Of a DNA stretch of 64,000 nucleotides, positions 58,648 through 64,000 are shown piece after piece (within the stretch, counting starts at the first letter, position 1; each line of letters starts with the position of its first letter). The position numbers and the translations under genes were made by a program. The notes beneath the pieces were generated by a model. That model was not told the origin of the DNA, did not search any database, and worked only from the letters and a program-made list of their open reading frames with translations. The DNA is from Gelidibacter salicanalis (GTDB lineage Bacteria; Bacteroidota; Bacteroidia; Flavobacteriales; Flavobacteriaceae), in assembly GCF_007997285.1 (NCBI RefSeq), contig NZ_VORX01000004.1, forward strand, positions 353,209-417,208, read 5' to 3'.

Positions 58648-58887
58648 ATGTCTAGACAAAGTATATCATTTACTAAGCCAAACGACGAATGGTTAAAAAA
58701 TCAAGTAGATAATAAAGAATATACAAGTAAAAGTGAACTTGTAAATGACTTGATTAGACAAGCTAGAAAGCAACAAGTCGAAATTGACTGGATTCGTACC
58801 AAATTGGATAAAGCTGAAAATAGCGGATTTTCGACTGACAGCAAAAATGAAATTTTAGCGCAATCAAAGTCTTTACTGAATGGCTAA
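58648..58887 (+). CDS. parD: ParD-type antitoxin
   Basis: The 79-residue protein has a ribbon-helix-helix N-terminus (SRQSISFTKPNDEWLKNQVD, SKSELVNDLIRQARK) and a disordered C-terminus that would bind the toxin. It overlaps the parE gene by eight bases. ParD represses the operon and blocks ParE. A promoter is not clearly visible. It lies just before the cassette array and is itself not flanked by matching end tags. Confidence 0.88.
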   Translation: MSRQSISFTKPNDEWLKNQVDNKEYTSKSELVNDLIRQARKQQVEIDWIRTKLDKAENSGFSTDSKNEILAQSKSLLNG

Positions 58888-59167
58888 ATATAAATTAAGT
58901 AACGAGGCTAAAGATGACTTAATTCGGATTCACCATTATGGAGTAAAAAAATTTGGAATACCTCAAGCGGATAAATATTTCGAATCATTTTTTGAATATT
59001 TTGACATGATCTCCAATAGACCTTTTTCATTTGAGTCGGTTGATTATATAAAAAAAGACTATAGACGCTGCGTTTGTGGTTTTGACAGCATTTATTTCAA
59101 AGTAAATGAAAATGTTGTAGAAATAATGGCAATAATAGGTCGACAAGATTTGACTGAAAAATTGTAA
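58880..59167 (+). CDS. parE: ParE-family toxin
   Basis: The 95-residue RelE/ParE-fold protein (KYKLSNEAKDDLIRIHHYGV, FFEYFDMISNRPF, YRRCVCGFDSIYFKVNENVV, AIIGRQD) ends with the ParE-type IIGRQD strand. Chromosomal ParE toxins poison DNA gyrase; this target is assumed from the family. It overlaps parD by eight bases. Such pairs stabilise neighbouring mobile or cassette DNA. Confidence 0.88.
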   Translation: MAKYKLSNEAKDDLIRIHHYGVKKFGIPQADKYFESFFEYFDMISNRPFSFESVDYIKKDYRRCVCGFDSIYFKVNENVVEIMAIIGRQDLTEKL

Positions 59168-59489
59168 CTGGAAATTATAAAAACGTGTTACAATAACTAA
59201 GAAGTACTCGGCTCGCCGATTAGTCCCTTCGGTCATGAGTATATTGACTAGAGTAGCATATTGTGTTAACGCATCCGATAGGTTTGCCGTCTATGGGTAA
59301 AACGTTTGGTTGAGGGTAGGGGTATTTTGAAGTTGTGCTGTGATTGATTTGGTCAAGTGTGTACATGCGTAGTGGTTACTTATAGGAAAGTGTCTTTTCT
59401 CATTTTGTTGGCATTATAAAATAAAAAGTGCTTTGGTTAAATTGTATCCTATCCTTAAAAGTAATATTTTTGATAAGGACATATAATAA
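59168..59489. other. Intergenic between parE and the cassette array
   Basis: About 320 bases. An inverted pair, ATTGTAAC at 59161-59168 and GTTACAAT at 59187-59194, spans the parE stop and may be a small hairpin. The remainder shows no gene, RNA or repeat and may contain the left edge of the array. Confidence 0.35.
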
Positions 59490-59524
59490 ATATAGGCGCA
59501 ATTGGTTGCGTCTATATATTTGTT
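59490..59524 (+). other. Left-boundary hairpin and first box of the cassette array
   Basis: ATATAGGCGCAA (59490-59501) pairs with TTGCGTCTATAT (59506-59517) around a TTGG loop, and GTT at 59522-59524 follows as in the other sites. It differs from sites 1-6: it is short, has no AAC box, and its one non-Watson-Crick pair is a G:T on the top strand. It may be an end site, a degenerate site or an attI-like sequence. Confidence 0.45.
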
Positions 59525-59562
59525 AGCAAATATTAAAAAAAACCTTCAAACTAAATATAAAA

Positions 59563-60234
59563 ATGAGTTTTTTAAAAAAATTATTCGGAAAAGATACTAA
59601 TCCTGAAAAAGAGAAATTTAAATATAGCGGAGGAAATAATGACCCTGAAAGGAATAGCAAATTTGAGGCAGACTTAAACAAAATAAAAGCAGGTGAAATT
59701 GATAAAATATTCCCAATACTTAAGCCTGGAGATTGGGTTGGGATAAAGGCAGGAGCTTTAAGACAAACCATTATTGGAGATAAAGAGAATCCAAAACTCG
59801 TAGTTGGATTTGGCTATGATGCGCCAAACAATTTTGTGTTTCTAAATTACTCTGACTACCAAGAAAGAGAGAAACTTGAAAAAATGGTTGAACAAGCCTA
59901 TGATAACTTATATAAATATGAAGTTACATTCAACGAAGTTGTTCCTAATAAAGTAATAATTATAGATGGTCAAGATTTTTGCAGTGAAAAAATTCTGGAT
60001 ACAAAATTTATGGAAGCTTTACAGAACAAAATGGGTGGAGAAAAACTGGTAGTTTCAATTCCAAGAAGAAGATGTATGATGGTTACAAACTCATTTGAGG
60101 ATGAAGCAATATTTGAACAATTTATATCAGTACACAATAGTACTTGGAATAATGATGCTTATGGAAATCCTCAAATTATGAATTCATTGTTTGTAGTTAA
60201 AAATGGTGAAATTGAAATGGTGAAAGACTTATAA
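59563..60234 (+). CDS. Hypothetical protein, cassette 1
   Basis: The 223-residue soluble protein begins FLKKLFGKDTNPEKEKFKYS and is rich in charged residues, with a central GDWVGIKAGALRQTII and FGYDAPNNFVFLNY and a later PRRRCMMVTNSFEDEAIFEQ. It has no signal peptide or membrane helix. I do not recognise a family; part of the pattern recalls DUF1444-like proteins, but this is uncertain. It lies in an array unit whose 13 terminal bases at each side (59522-59534 and 60237-60249) are complementary except position 11, like an integron gene cassette. ATG and stop fill most of the unit, as in cassettes. No promoter of its own is clear. Confidence 0.7.
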   Translation: MSFLKKLFGKDTNPEKEKFKYSGGNNDPERNSKFEADLNKIKAGEIDKIFPILKPGDWVGIKAGALRQTIIGDKENPKLVVGFGYDAPNNFVFLNYSDYQEREKLEKMVEQAYDNLYKYEVTFNEVVPNKVIIIDGQDFCSEKILDTKFMEALQNKMGGEKLVVSIPRRRCMMVTNSFEDEAIFEQFISVHNSTWNNDAYGNPQIMNSLFVVKNGEIEMVKDL

Positions 60235-60246
60235 TTAACATTTGCT

Positions 60247-60370
60247 AACACGGTATATAAAAAATAGCGGGTTTAGTGCTAAATCGAAAGTATGTGCATA
60301 TTAATAAACATTAGTGATAAACCGAAAATTAATGCATTTTTAGCCGCTACTTTTCATATACCCAACCGTT
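60247..60370 (+). repeat. attC-like site 1 (124 bp)
   Basis: It starts with AAC (60247-60249) and ends with GTT (60368-60370). An 18-base stem GTATATAAAAAATAGCGG (60253-60270) pairs with CCGCTACTTTTCATATAC (60344-60361). The only mismatches are A opposite C at stem positions 7 and 12. The spacers between box and stem are 3 (ACG) and 6 bases. The apical part differs from the other sites. The stem covaries with the other five sites. Confidence 0.8.
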
Positions 60371-60379
60371 GGCAATAAT

Positions 60380-61000
60380 ATGACTCAACACAACGACAAA
60401 ACGAACGAATTGAATAAAACTGAAATTCTGACAAATCTATTGTAGACAGCATTCGGAATTATTGGCGGAATAAGTTATTATTCAAAATCGGAATATTGGA
60501 TTTGCGGAATTATGTTTTTAATCGGAAGTTTTATACGCTTACAAACTGATAAAATCAATAGTGGGAAAATGAAAAAAATACATTTTGGGAATTTAGAAAA
60601 AAAAGGACGTTGGATAATAATAGTAATAAGCATTATTGGATTATTACTTATCATAAATGGAGCATTTGAATTTATAGAATTTGAAAACCAAAAAACGAAT
60701 AAATATTTAAATGCAATCGGATTTCTAATCGTTTTCGCAATTAGTAGCCAAATGTTCTGGTATCAGAATTATGTTCAATGGAACAAAAGAGGAATCTTAA
60801 TCAGAATAAAATCGTTCTTTGGGAAAAACATAAAATTCAAAGAAATAAAATCATCTGAATTGAATGACAAAAAGTTGATTATAACAGAAACGTATGGAAA
60901 TAAAATTGAGATTGATTTAAGTCACATAATAGAATCTGACGTTGAAAAATTAATGGATATAATAAACAAAAATACTATTGCCAACAACGTGTATAATTAA
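60380..61000 (+). pseudogene. Membrane protein gene of cassette 2, interrupted by a TAG
   Basis: From the ATG at 60380, 12 bases after the cassette's GTT, the frame reads MTQHNDKTNELNKTEILTNL, then a TAG at 60443-60445, then continues in the same frame without another stop to 61000 (TAFGIIGGISYYSKSEY, GIMFLIGSFIRLQ and more). TAG is one change from TGG (Trp) or TTG, and only the full reading gives a complete first membrane hairpin. A shorter reading from the ATG at 60512 (162 residues) would lack it. Two further helices appear (IIIVISIIGLLLIINGAFEF, IGFLIVFAISSQMF). The stop codon lies inside the downstream attC-like site. It is either a nonsense mutant or reinitiates at 60512. Confidence 0.65.
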
Positions 61001-61105
61001 TGGCTGGTTTTAGCTTGCTTACGAAAATCCTCGCGGATTTTCTATTCGTTTTTTATTTGCTAAATTAGGTGCTTAACCACGCCACTAATCATACACAAAC
61101 ACGTT
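60983..61105 (+). repeat. attC-like site 2 (123 bp)
   Basis: AAC at 60983-60985; GTT at 61103-61105. Stem GTGTATAATTAATGGC (60989-61004) pairs with GCCACTAATCATACAC (61081-61096), mismatched only as A:C at positions 7 and 12. The spacers are 3 (AAC) and 6 bases. The apical hairpin is GAAAATCC (61023-61030), TCGC, GGATTTTC (61035-61042). Confidence 0.88.
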
Positions 61106-61121
61106 GTGCGTAAGTTAACCA

Positions 61122-61655
61122 ATGAACTCTAAAAAGATAATTACATACGGAATTGGACTTTTAATCCTTGAAATAACATTTTTAGGATTATGGACTTACC
61201 AAATGGAACCTGACCCGAGTGTTTCACTTGGAATTATTATCATTGTCCCTTTTCTATTCGTTTTAAATATAATTATCGGAATTCTTTTCTATATATTTAA
61301 AAGCAAACTATCGAGTCTTTTTTTTATAAATTCCATTGTCTGTCCTTTATTATTTTTCGGAATCTGGAATTTGTGGTATATGAATTATCAAGACCGAATA
61401 TCAGAGCGGTTTGAATTTGTAATCGGAGAAAAAAACTATGAAGTCAGTTTATCGAAAAAGTCAGAATACTTCTCTATTTCGGATATGACAAACCAACAGA
61501 ATGGTACGACTACTGGACTTTATTTCGGCAAATATGAAAAAAAAGCTGATAGCATAAAATTAACTGATGGAGAAACTAAAATGTATATAGTTAAAAAGAA
61601 ATTAATCGGATTTCCAGAAAAACCAAATGAAATTAAATTAACCGAATCGGAATAA
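61122..61655 (+). CDS. Hypothetical membrane protein, cassette 3
   Basis: The 177-residue protein has three N-terminal membrane helices (residues ~6-25, TYGIGLLILEITFLGLW; ~38-58, IIIIVPFLFVLNIIIGILF; ~63-85) and then a soluble tail ending IGFPEKPNEIKLTESE. The end GFPEKPxEI also occurs in the protein of the next cassette, so the two tails may be related. No family is recognised. The ATG is 17 bases after the unit's GTT. The unit's 14-base ends (61103-61116 and 61658-61671) are complementary except position 11. Confidence 0.75.
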   Translation: MNSKKIITYGIGLLILEITFLGLWTYQMEPDPSVSLGIIIIVPFLFVLNIIIGILFYIFKSKLSSLFFINSIVCPLLFFGIWNLWYMNYQDRISERFEFVIGEKNYEVSLSKKSEYFSISDMTNQQNGTTTGLYFGKYEKKADSIKLTDGETKMYIVKKKLIGFPEKPNEIKLTESE

Positions 61656-61668
61656 AAAACCTACGCAC

Positions 61669-61791
61669 AACAATGTGTATAAGCAATGGCTTGGTCAGTC
61701 CTCACTTGGAAAATCCTGCGGATTTTCCAAAGCCAGTTTTTATTTGGAGAGGTTCGTACTTTAACACGCCACTGCTCATACACTAAACGTT
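61669..61791 (+). repeat. attC-like site 3 (123 bp)
   Basis: AAC at 61669-61671; GTT at 61789-61791. Stem GTGTATAAGCAATGGC (61675-61690) pairs with GCCACTGCTCATACAC (61768-61783), A:C mismatches only at positions 7 and 12. The spacers are 3 (AAT) and 5 bases. The apical hairpin is GGAAAATCC (61708-61716), TGC, GGATTTTCC (61720-61728). Confidence 0.9.
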
Positions 61792-61823
61792 GTGCATAAT
61801 GTCCAAAAAACCGCAGAAAATAA

Positions 61824-62423
61824 ATGAAAAACCTGAATGGAACTTGGTTAAAGATTAAAACAGGAGATGACTATTGTCGACCAGAATTTATTGAATTCAA
61901 TAACGACCAAATCAACCATTTTGACATTGAATTAAAAAGCGGAAATGAATTATCAAAAGTCCGAACTGAATGGAGCGAGAAACTTTCCGAATCAAAATAC
62001 GAATTCGTAAATGACAATCGAATAAGAATATTCAGAATGGGAAAAACTCACACTGTGTTGAGCGAAACCGAATTTAAAACAGAGGATACTGAATTTGCGA
62101 CTGACTATGAAAGAATCGAACCGACCAAAACAGATCTGGAATCCGAAAAAATTGAGAAGCTCGCATTTAAAGCTCAATGGCAAAATGAAAAAATCCCATT
62201 AGTGTTTAAAAAAGTTTTGGACAGTCAAGTGATACAAGAGCTGAACAAAAGAATGAAAAGAAATGGACGCAAATTAGTTTTGGAAAATTTACAAGGAACT
62301 TATTTCGCATCGATTTTCGAAAATGATGAACGAGAAACACTAATTGGCATAAAGGAAATTGATGAGAAAAAAGCAATTCTTTTCGGATTTCCAGAAAAAC
62401 CATATGAAATTAGGGCTGAATAA
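61824..62423 (+). CDS. Hypothetical protein, cassette 4
   Basis: The 199-residue soluble protein begins KNLNGTWLKIKTGDDYCRPE and looks like a beta-sandwich in two lipocalin-like halves; the second half contains LVLENLQGTYFASIFEND. It ends with AILFGFPEKPYEIRAE, the same closing motif as cassette 3. No signal peptide and no recognised family. The start at 61824 is 33 bases after the unit's GTT; an ATG nearer at 61801 is out of frame and stops early. The unit ends (61789-61802 and 62425-62438) are complementary except position 11. Confidence 0.72.
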   Translation: MKNLNGTWLKIKTGDDYCRPEFIEFNNDQINHFDIELKSGNELSKVRTEWSEKLSESKYEFVNDNRIRIFRMGKTHTVLSETEFKTEDTEFATDYERIEPTKTDLESEKIEKLAFKAQWQNEKIPLVFKKVLDSQVIQELNKRMKRNGRKLVLENLQGTYFASIFENDERETLIGIKEIDEKKAILFGFPEKPYEIRAE

Positions 62424-62435
62424 AACACTATGCAC

Positions 62436-62561
62436 AACACCGTGTAAAAATAATTGCTTGGTTCTCGCCTACTTGGAAATTCCTGCGGAATTTCCACAGG
62501 CTCGTTCAATTTTAGTATTTTAGGTGTTTATCCCACGCAACTATTCTTACACATAAACGTT
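62436..62561 (+). repeat. attC-like site 4 (126 bp)
   Basis: AAC at 62436-62438; GTT at 62559-62561. Stem GTGTAAAAATAATTGC (62442-62457) pairs with GCAACTATTCTTACAC (62537-62552), A:C mismatches only at positions 7 and 12. The spacers are 3 (ACC) and 6 bases. The apical hairpin is GGAAATTCC (62475-62483), TGC, GGAATTTCC (62487-62495). Confidence 0.9.
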
Positions 62562-63006
62562 AGCACACAGTTGACCAGAACGCAGAAAAGCCCAAATCCA
62601 CCGAAAAAAATTTGGTTTTTAAGAACAAAAAGAATTATTAAAAAGAAAATTCCGAATTGACTAACGTCGTTTAAAAACCAATACTTCTTGAACACTAACT
62701 ATAAGTCGCCTAAAAAGAAAAACCTTTGATTTACAAATCGTTGGCTTAAAAACAGAACCGACAAATAGAACGCTGAAATCCATTCTGTCAAATTAAAACC
62801 TTCCGAACTTAATCGCTTTTTTTTTGCTTTTTAAGTGCAAAATCAAATGTTTGTGTTTCTCGACCGAATCAAATCTGACCAAATAAAATTAAAAAGCATA
62901 CTCCTGAAAACTTTAACAAAGATTGATCTGAATTGACTACATTAGTCTGATAAACAACATTTCGAACGACTTAAAACTCGGACGAAAAAGTTAAAAACCG
63001 TGTGCT
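62562..63006 (+). other. Cassette 5, without an evident gene
   Basis: This 445-base unit is bounded by the same sites and its 14-base ends (62559-62572 and 62996-63009) are complementary except position 11, but it has no open frame of useful length in either direction. It is A-rich with many stops. A leader-like TTG frame at 62571 stops after about 29 codons. Candidates are a decayed gene, a small RNA or a functional non-coding cassette; integrons are known to contain cassettes without ORFs. Confidence 0.6.
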
Positions 63007-63129
63007 AACAGCGTGTATAAGTTATGGCTGGTTCGCGCCTACTTGGAAAATCCTGCGGATTTTCCTCAGCAGTTGACTGTTTGTAATTTTCCGTGATATC
63101 ACACGCCACAACTCATACACATAAACGTT
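63007..63129 (+). repeat. attC-like site 5 (123 bp)
   Basis: AAC at 63007-63009; GTT at 63127-63129. Stem GTGTATAAGTTATGGC (63013-63028) pairs with GCCACAACTCATACAC (63105-63120), A:C mismatches only at positions 7 and 12. The spacers are 3 (AGC) and 6 bases. The apical hairpin is GGAAAATCC (63045-63053), TGC, GGATTTTCC (63057-63065). Confidence 0.9.
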
Positions 63130-63138
63130 ACCCACAAG

Positions 63139-63729
63139 TTGAAAAAAACTCTACAAATACTATTTACTCTGATTTTTATTTCTTGTTTAGAGAATAAGAA
63201 AGAACTTATTCAAACGGAATTGAAAATAACGAATGAATTTAAAATTGAAATTTTAAATCAAATTTTGTCCGACACTATTGACTTAAAATTGATGCGAAGT
63301 AAAGAAATGTATTTATCTAATTACGATGGGATTCCACCTCCTGTTTTACCAATGGACACTAAAAGGTCTGGTTATAGCATTACTCATTCGGAATATATCG
63401 CCCAACAACTTGGAGTTAATGATGTAGAATTTATAAAAAAACAAATGGCTGATAACAAACGGTTTGACCTTAATAAACTTTCTGAATACGGATTTAATAT
63501 TTTAGACGTAAAAGGATATTTAGATAAAGAAATTTACTATAGTAAAATCTTGGAAAAAACCGAAAACCAAAAATATTATGGGTTTTTCACAGTAAGCATA
63601 CCGATTTTTAACAAAAGTCTTAACAAAGCTTATATAAGGACAATGGATTTTGGAGGAGAAACACTATTGTTAAAAAAAATAAATGACAAATGGTTAATCG
63701 ACAAAAAGATTGACAGTTGGATTGATTAA
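63139..63729 (+). CDS. Hypothetical lipoprotein, cassette 6
   Basis: The 196-residue protein starts with TTG and has a lipoprotein signal (KKTLQILFTLIFISCLENKK; Cys in FISC). The mature part has no recognised domain; it shows YDGIPPPVLPMDTKRSGYS, a helical centre and a beta-rich end (YYGFFTVSIPIFNKS, YIRTMDFGGETLLL). The TTG is ten bases after the unit's GTT and gives the signal peptide its full basic start. The unit's 14-base ends (63127-63140 and 63731-63744) are complementary except position 11. Confidence 0.75.
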   Translation: MKKTLQILFTLIFISCLENKKELIQTELKITNEFKIEILNQILSDTIDLKLMRSKEMYLSNYDGIPPPVLPMDTKRSGYSITHSEYIAQQLGVNDVEFIKKQMADNKRFDLNKLSEYGFNILDVKGYLDKEIYYSKILEKTENQKYYGFFTVSIPIFNKSLNKAYIRTMDFGGETLLLKKINDKWLIDKKIDSWID

Positions 63730-63741
63730 AAACCTGTGGGT

Positions 63742-63867
63742 AACACCGTATAAAATTAATTGCTTGGTTCTAGCCTACTTGGAAATTCCTTCGGAATTTC
63801 CTCTGGTTCGTTCCATTTTTGCTAAATTAGTTACTTAACCACGCAACTAACCTTATACATAAACGTT
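63742..63867 (+). repeat. attC-like site 6 (126 bp)
   Basis: AAC at 63742-63744; GTT at 63865-63867. Stem GTATAAAATTAATTGC (63748-63763) pairs with GCAACTAACCTTATAC (63843-63858); the mismatches are A:C at positions 7, 8 and 12. The spacers are 3 (ACC) and 6 bases. The apical hairpin is GGAAATTCC (63781-63789), TTC, GGAATTTCC (63793-63801). Confidence 0.9.
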
Positions 63868-64000
63868 GGCAATAATTCCTCTCTTCTCCCAAAAAAAATA
63901 ATCACTTTAAGGTAACGTTTTGTATCTTGGATAGTGCTCTTTGCAAGACCGATTTTAAATTGATGCTTATAAGCTCGAGCGTAATTCTGGTTGGAATGTA
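63868..64000 (+). other. Start of cassette 7, cut by the window end
   Basis: The next unit begins GTTGGCAATAATTC at 63865, with nearly the same tag as cassette 2 (GTTGGCAATAATAT). No ORF start is evident in the 133 visible bases. The array therefore continues past the window. Confidence 0.6.

Follow-up and report, generated by a model that had tools for sequence, protein, structure and literature searches.

Integrons are elements known for collecting resistance genes, and the R boxes of their attC sites have the consensus GTTRRRY; XerA is an enzyme of the dimer-resolution type. For the integron-like subgroup of tyrosine recombinases, the available part of PMC8138268 calls an insertion essential for integron function and mentions no cassette arrays for members without it. 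According to the available part of PMC7790495, the I2 helix is needed for cassette capture and occurs in no other protein, and the joining of single-stranded to double-stranded DNA is unique to IntI. Here we describe an array of gene cassettes at the right end of a 64,000-nucleotide stretch of Gelidibacter salicanalis DNA (hereafter the window). The array very probably belongs to an integron-like cassette system of Bacteroidota, with matched 10-nucleotide (nt) ends, hairpin sites and an attI-like head, likely served by a XerA-like recombinase that lacks the additional domain and is encoded elsewhere. No description of such a system was found in the open-licence literature, including the available parts of PMC9024848, PMC2426708, PMC9668308, PMC8618304, PMC8352920, PMC8138268 and PMC7790495.

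Like the IntI chromosomal integrons (e.g. the Vibrio superintegrons), the system has single-gene cassettes in one orientation, hairpin sites of R-spacer-L layout, a GTT boundary, an attI-like site beside a tyrosine recombinase, a favoured bottom strand and, in some chromosomes, more than 100 sites. Unlike them, its recombinase lacks the additional domain and scores under the IntI cut-off, its R box reads GTTRNNN with 10-nt arms, its bottom strand carries fixed G.T wobbles, and its L stem is mostly without bulged bases in sites that were found with a bulge-free model. The position of the attI-like site directly downstream of the recombinase gene is shared with archaeal integrons, whose IntIs, in contrast to the enzymes described here, carry the IntI-specific domain (PMC9668308, in the part available). 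Archaeal XerA (4a8e, 5hxy) provides the top sequence and fold matches of the recombinase, from which it is set apart by an N-terminal extension of about 90 residues in many members and by the linkage to cassette arrays. By the features tested, this is not an IntI integron, since both the enzyme and the R-box consensus fail, while its testable anatomy and movement are integron-like.

The draft genome measures 3.78 Mb and consists of 24 contigs, and the window makes up the right end of one of them, C19. This contig terminates at position 64000, so the array runs past the contig end. The first-pass annotation, made from the letters of the window alone, had reported six sites of 123-126 bp in a single orientation between small units, and we recovered all six at the same positions with lengths of 124, 123, 123, 126, 123 and 126 bp. 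The details it gave were likewise borne out: AAC/GTT end boxes were found in 6/6 sites; the unpaired spacer has 3 nt on one side and 5-6 nt on the other; the 16-bp stem is fully paired on the bottom strand in 6/6; an apical hairpin is present in S2-S6 and absent from S1; and none of the six R boxes fits GTTRRRY (GTTGGCA, GTTGTGC, GTTGTGC, GTTAGCA, GTTACCC, GTTGGCA). Three features go beyond that annotation, namely the matched ends of the units, the attI-like left edge and the truncation of the array by the contig end. The left edge is an attI-like site and not a cassette site, and its layout recurs behind other recombinases. The features of the array are as follows.

59457 to 59516, forward strand: remnant of a recombinase gene with part of the attI-like site, 86.7% identical over 60 nt to contig C23
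59492 to 59524, forward strand: attI-like site, an inverted repeat (59492-59501 / 59506-59515) followed by GTT (59522-59524)
59522 to 60249, forward strand: unit 1, with head arm GTTAGCAAAT, open reading frame (ORF) 59563-60234 (223 amino acids, aa) and tail arm ATTTGCTAAC
60247 to 60370, forward strand: attC-like site S1, 124 bp, apical hairpin absent
60368 to 60985, forward strand: unit 2, ORF 60512-61000, membrane-protein-like by eye; homologous unit in three other genera
60983 to 61105, forward strand: attC-like site S2, 123 bp
61103 to 61671, forward strand: unit 3, ORF 61122-61655, membrane-protein-like by eye; homologous unit in G193 (87%) and G237 (69%)
61669 to 61791, forward strand: attC-like site S3, 123 bp
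61789 to 62438, forward strand: unit 4, ORF 61824-62423 (199 aa); homologous unit in G267, G374, G021 and G329 (86-89%)
62436 to 62561, forward strand: attC-like site S4, 126 bp
62559 to 63009, forward strand: unit 5, without a convincing ORF
63007 to 63129, forward strand: attC-like site S5, 123 bp
63127 to 63744, forward strand: unit 6, ORF 63139-63729 (196 aa), lipoprotein-like start by eye
63742 to 63867, forward strand: attC-like site S6, 126 bp
63865 to 64000, forward strand: unit 7, beginning only, running into the contig end

The boundaries of the cassettes are defined by their matched ends. In 6/6 window units, GTT and the 7 nt that follow it at the head are exactly complementary, over 10/10 nt, to the 7 nt and AAC at the unit's own tail. 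Heads and tails of different window units share only 3-7 nt, with the exception of the incomplete unit 7, whose head equals that of unit 2. The position after the arm is A at the head and C at the tail, and positions beyond it pair again. Across 145 sites from G. salicanalis and other genomes, AAC stands at its expected place in 135 and GTT in 140. A first set of units was built from 86 consecutive-site units with GTT at both boxes, and the 85 shorter than 3.5 kb were kept. Head and tail pair over 10 nt in 60/85 of these and over at least 9 nt in 72/85, compared with 67/7140 and 119/7140 when heads are set against the tails of other units; the top strand shows A/C at position 11 in 75/85. A second set, from which 12/96 units were dropped for longer gaps and none for their boxes, gave pairing of at least 9 nt in 69/84 units (null, 88/6972) and A/C at position 11 in 76/84. 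Some of the failing units are long and could conceal an undetected site, and in others a box is shifted. A purine occupies position 4 in all of 84 heads, position 5 in 33/84 and position 6 in 43/84.

Whole cassettes have moved recently. In four near-identical cassette pairs, identity begins at GTT, and just 6-13 of the 30 bases upstream are equal. The runs of identity measure 1533 (two cassettes), 713, 654 and 550 nt, with 0, 10, 1 and 0 mismatches. Identity stops at the next GTT in the 1533-nt and 550-nt pairs; in the 713-nt pair, which joins G159 to a genome of another genus (G193), it stops about 5 bases before the next GTT, within the spacer; and in the 654-nt pair the end is blurred, as the two next heads resemble each other. 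The downstream site core is 95-100% identical in these recent copies, and the upstream core 45-70%. Cassettes evidently move as units, because each copy starts at GTT, takes its downstream site along and stops at the next GTT or close to it. An exchange of hairpin tips between sites was also considered, on account of the older homologous cassettes whose gene and arms are kept without the site core, and is needless, given that recent copies retain their own downstream core at 95-100%.

Older relationships were sought by comparing the window array with 397 genomes of the family (best two places per genome). Single-unit matches appeared in other genera for unit 4 (G267, G374, G021, G329), unit 2 (G209, G009, G071) and unit 3 (G193, G237), among others. 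In ten homologous pairs, identity is 69-89% for the genes and 45-72%, near the alignment background, for neighbouring gene and site cores; the 14-nt head and the 12-nt tail each reach 100% in 7/10. A fixed cassette order in all relatives, named earlier as an outcome that would speak against an integron, is not what we observed: order is not fixed among relatives, and gain, duplication and sharing of single cassettes are all seen.

Plasmid pHH1107 (FJ012881; 5052-7225 of our locus L273) encodes a shortened relative of the recombinase, annotated TnpF, with 51.7% identity across residues 127-360. An attI-like inverted repeat comes next, and after it tet(X3). The arms flanking tet(X3) agree at 11/14 positions, including the A/C wobble, a result equalled in 5/2000 shuffles; no R2 site (the wider model defined below) was found in this locus at E<=1. 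This arrangement suggests that tet(X3) may have left Bacteroidota as such a cassette.

The sites have the layout of attC, R-spacer-L-loop-L-spacer-R as an imperfect inverted repeat. In an alignment of 122 sites (119 distinct rows) that was itself fitted to the structure, 94.7% of cells pair, versus 79.5% in shuffles, and changes on both sides are seen in 22/30 pairs. In 6/6 window sites, two stem positions hold an A.C mismatch on the top strand and a G.T wobble on the bottom one; across the 119 distinct rows, one of these G.T wobbles is kept in 117/119 and the other in 104/119. The spacer on one side is 6 nt in 95/122 sites and 5 nt in 27/122, and that on the opposite side is 3 nt in 120/122. 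The L stem is bulge-free in 106/122 sites, which were found with a model itself bulge-free. Folded with DNA parameters as stretches of 130-150 nt, the bottom strand is the more stable one in 205/220 distinct sites; for random stretches, the corresponding count for one strand is 103/220.

For surveys of other genomes we used R1, a covariance model built from the six window sites, and R2, a wider model built from 122 sites with nine recombinase loci among the sources. The scan of Flavobacteriaceae that the first-pass annotation had recommended was productive, with R1 sites in at least 258/299 family genomes (best ten candidates per genome). The G. salicanalis genome holds 21 R1 sites at E<=1e-3. 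R2 detected at least 125, 148, 106 and 14 sites in four complete chromosomes (best 150 candidates), and sites in at least 105/395 genomes of the phylum (best eight candidates per genome).

Arrays lie 3' of recombinase genes. We took 80 loci of recombinase relatives from named genomes and sorted them by hand, going by record titles, into Bacteroidota and others (one 'bacterium' among the others). At E<=0.1, R1 gave 54 matches in these loci. Of these, 53 lie on the strand that codirectional cassettes would have, and 52 of the 53 are downstream of the recombinase; R2 gave 71, with 70 on the expected strand and 68 downstream. R2 sites at E<=1e-4 occur in 18/45 Bacteroidota loci versus 1/35 others (22/45 versus 1/35 at E<=0.1), and 15/45 Bacteroidota stretches stop less than 1 kb past the recombinase stop codon, like contig C23. 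Loci with sites include those of Algibacter onchidii, Polaribacter vadi, Planktosalinus lacus, Cellulophaga sp. and Flavobacterium odoriferum. Of 37 recombinase loci with an R2 match, 34 were tested for a first-cassette head (L137, L138 and L143 were left out, and two places occur twice). The best match to the tail of the first site, at 8-10/10 nt, lies 23-128 nt past the recombinase in 28/34, a distance counted from the end of the matched part rather than from the stop codon in 14 loci. Many of the 34 have an inverted repeat such as GATAAACGCAATTGCGTTTATC before this head, so that attI-like sites stand behind the recombinase genes. In the complete chromosomes G157, G159 and G040, sites lie 3' of every recombinase found at E<=1e-60: in G157 the listed sites behind the recombinase (2129339-2130439) extend from 2131292 to 2184056, and in G159 listed sites lie 3' of each of three recombinases, one set crossing the origin of the chromosome numbering. 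Listed sites also follow the more distant recombinases of G013, G014, G113 and G121, at about 0.7-16 kb on the 3' side and with the expected strand.

Contig C23 of G. salicanalis carries a gene for a 372-aa tyrosine recombinase, P0001 (L052:163-1281, minus strand), followed by an attI-like site as in the window. The 60-nt match between the two covers the last ~10 recombinase codons and most of the attI-like site, and the inverted repeat ends just before GTT. The window retains only the tail of a recombinase gene (..FDKDI*, stop at 59484-59486). By its sequence, then, the window holds a platform whose recombinase gene has been reduced to its tail, and the C23 enzyme would therefore need to act in trans on it. 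The first-pass annotation had left a choice between a divergent integron and an attC-like cluster without its integrase. The latter fits the local picture alone, as an intact recombinase stands with the same attI-like site on C23; the former agrees with the matched ends, the attC-like and attI-like sites, the linked recombinase, and the gain, duplication and inter-genus sharing of single cassettes. The search for an IntI-type or other tyrosine recombinase with an attI, which that annotation had proposed, yielded a Xer-like one, that of C23. The first cassette of C23 equals the start of a unit within the C22 array over 127/127 nt from GTT to the contig end, and the sequences upstream differ. 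Since 127 is a usual assembler overlap, the shared start would mean that the genome has the cassette twice or that the culture contained two arrangements.

The array-linked enzyme is, on the profile and alignment results that follow, not an IntI as defined. Against NCBIfam, P0001 scored 205 bits with the XerA-like family NF040815 (cut-off 220) and 203 bits with integrase_gron (cut-off 265). Six other array-linked enzymes scored 234.9, 232.1 and 226.4 (above 220) and 208.5, 202.5 and 196.1 (below) with NF040815, and with integrase_gron six array-linked enzymes reached 182-215 bits; as a positive control, two IntIs reached 508 and 491 bits with this family. The alignment of P0001 to Vibrio IntI (2a3v) is broken, leaving IntI residues 205-246 (42 residues), which we take to be the region of the additional domain, without a counterpart. 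The catalytic Arg and the His of HxLRH are spaced 89-90 apart in P0001 as well as in the 18 Bacteroidota enzymes whose loci have a site at E<=1e-4, and IntIs from the same scan show 131 in three (identical in the compared part), 127 in one and possibly 131 in four more. R220, H309, R312, H335 and Y344, presumably the catalytic residues, are invariant among 33 aligned enzymes. In a quick tree of 63 rows, supported by SH-aLRT values only, a single clade (99) unites nine IntIs; one side of another branch (90) contains 24 array-linked enzymes, mixed with rows of unknown linkage. A fold search ranked archaeal XerA first and IntI next; the AlphaFold model was used for fold neighbours only because its pTM is 0.49. 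Residues 1-90 of P0001 form an N-terminal extension that is conserved among array-linked recombinases and missing in some, e.g. L117 and L202.

We propose that the bottom strand of a site would fold, marked out from the top strand by its G.T wobbles (A.C mismatches on the top strand) and its uneven spacer. The recombinase would act on this folded strand, cutting it next to GTT and joining it to attI or to another site. The cassette would be excised as a circle, in which its own head and tail arms flank the core, pair over 14 positions and complete the hairpin; in the array two foreign arms would meet, and sure pairing would be limited to AAC/GTT. For the window array, the recombinase of C23 may serve in trans.

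Several observations weigh against this picture. Older homologous cassettes keep the gene and the arms, and their site core is not conserved. The first set of units excluded beforehand any pair without GTT at both boxes, counts two units twice (L104 and L145 are one genome) and includes five of the window's own. Among 13 further G. salicanalis sites, just one (C22:1654) has a full matching head within 3.5 kb, and several have a shifted or missing AAC box. Six of these sites are isolated and may have decayed, because no matching head lies within 3.5 kb; the head-match test is a poor one for the cluster on contig C8 and for C22:11898 because the AAC box is shifted or missing there. The C22 copy of the C23 cassette ends in a site that lacks a proper AAC box and does not match the head, and so falls short of a clean cassette. 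Of the Bacteroidota loci with at least 2 kb downstream, 8/25 show no R2 site at E<=0.1, and the first-cassette head lies 209-2463 nt from the recombinase in 6/34 loci. A recombinase at E<=1e-60 was found in just 93/299 family genomes, though sites occur in at least 258/299; even at E<=1e-30 none was found in G071 or G209, and the one in G294 does not lie near the listed sites.

The integron-like anatomy would also be expected if a true IntI, since lost or located elsewhere, had placed the cassettes of a classical integron or of a cluster of attC sites lacking an integrase, and one complete Bacteroidetes integron, in Salinibacter ruber M1, was found by IntegronFinder 2.0 (PMC9024848, in the part available). 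We consider this very unlikely: TIGR02249 (integrase_gron) exceeded its cut-off in none of 299 family genomes (best seven candidates per genome) and likewise in none of 14 control genomes, recombinases without the domain occupy the array heads, and the R boxes deviate from GTTRRRY. A second possibility is that host XerC/XerD work on the sites, as for Xer-exploiting elements, and that the linked recombinase has another role. The linked enzyme is indeed Xer-like, and a single-stranded hairpin of the CTX phage uses host Xer (PMC7790495, in the part available), but the linked recombinase stands immediately before the first cassette in 28/34 loci, and no R1 match was found in the 13 kb around one (L053) of the two G. 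salicanalis Xer-like genes; we regard a role of this kind for XerC/XerD as quite improbable.

Strong, conserved stem-loops between same-strand genes could instead be transcribed RNA, terminators or REP-like repeats, mere separators of genes, and an RNA or terminator family had been named by the first-pass annotation as a possible refutation. However, no Rfam family reached its gathering threshold, the best match (E 0.36) lying outside the sites, and folding is better on the strand opposite the genes. Such a reading leaves the matched unit ends unexplained and is contradicted by the GTT-bounded movement of cassettes, so that we give it almost no weight. The 14-nt imperfect inverted repeat at the ends of most units might suggest small transposon-like elements, one per unit and each with terminal inverted repeats of its own, were it not that a moving unit takes the downstream site along and leaves the upstream site behind, that the repeats vary between units, and that the arrays have a single orientation with the recombinase at the start. 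Pfam matched no transposase family among the window units, and we hold this explanation to be highly improbable. A DNA search of phages with site S2 gave no match.

Under the integron-like reading, the recombinase at the array heads lacks a piece held essential for integron integrases, and the shuffling of cassettes through folded DNA therefore likely works without that piece. A widespread cassette system led by I2-less recombinases makes the claim that I2 is necessary testable. On balance it seems probable that Bacteroidota have integrons of their own, with a Xer-like recombinase lacking the I2 helix and with bottom-strand hairpins whose polarity would be set by G.T wobbles and an uneven spacer, not by extrahelical bases; these would stock most flavobacterial chromosomes, some with more than 100 cassettes, and would have passed single genes to other bacteria. 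The site counts in Flavobacteriaceae suggest a large, overlooked reservoir of mobile small genes, and such cassettes are likely missed by tools keyed to IntI and GTTRRRY.

Some further observations concern individual loci. In unit 2, a first frame (60380-60445) opens with ATG at 60380 and is stopped by TAG at 60443, ahead of the listed ORF beginning at 60512. A ParD/ParE-like toxin-antitoxin pair (58648-59164) adjoins the attI-like site of the window on its left and has no recognised site of its own. In the site cluster on contig C8 (L030 5072-13981), three sites share nearly one tail sequence, with pairing unlike that of other sites, and the cluster contains a HigB/HigA-like pair, as read from its ORFs. 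Arrays also occur on plasmids: in Chryseobacterium sp. SNU WT5 (L274), an array stands behind a gene annotated as a site-specific tyrosine recombinase/integron integrase, and a Persicobacter psychrovividus plasmid (L275) has 17 sites in 12 kb, with head-tail pairing of at least 9 nt in 15/16 of the Persicobacter units. Finally, an array stretch of G157 (L254 6323-10085) contains a KAP NTPase gene and a GmrSD-type restriction gene, and the cargo thus includes likely defence genes.

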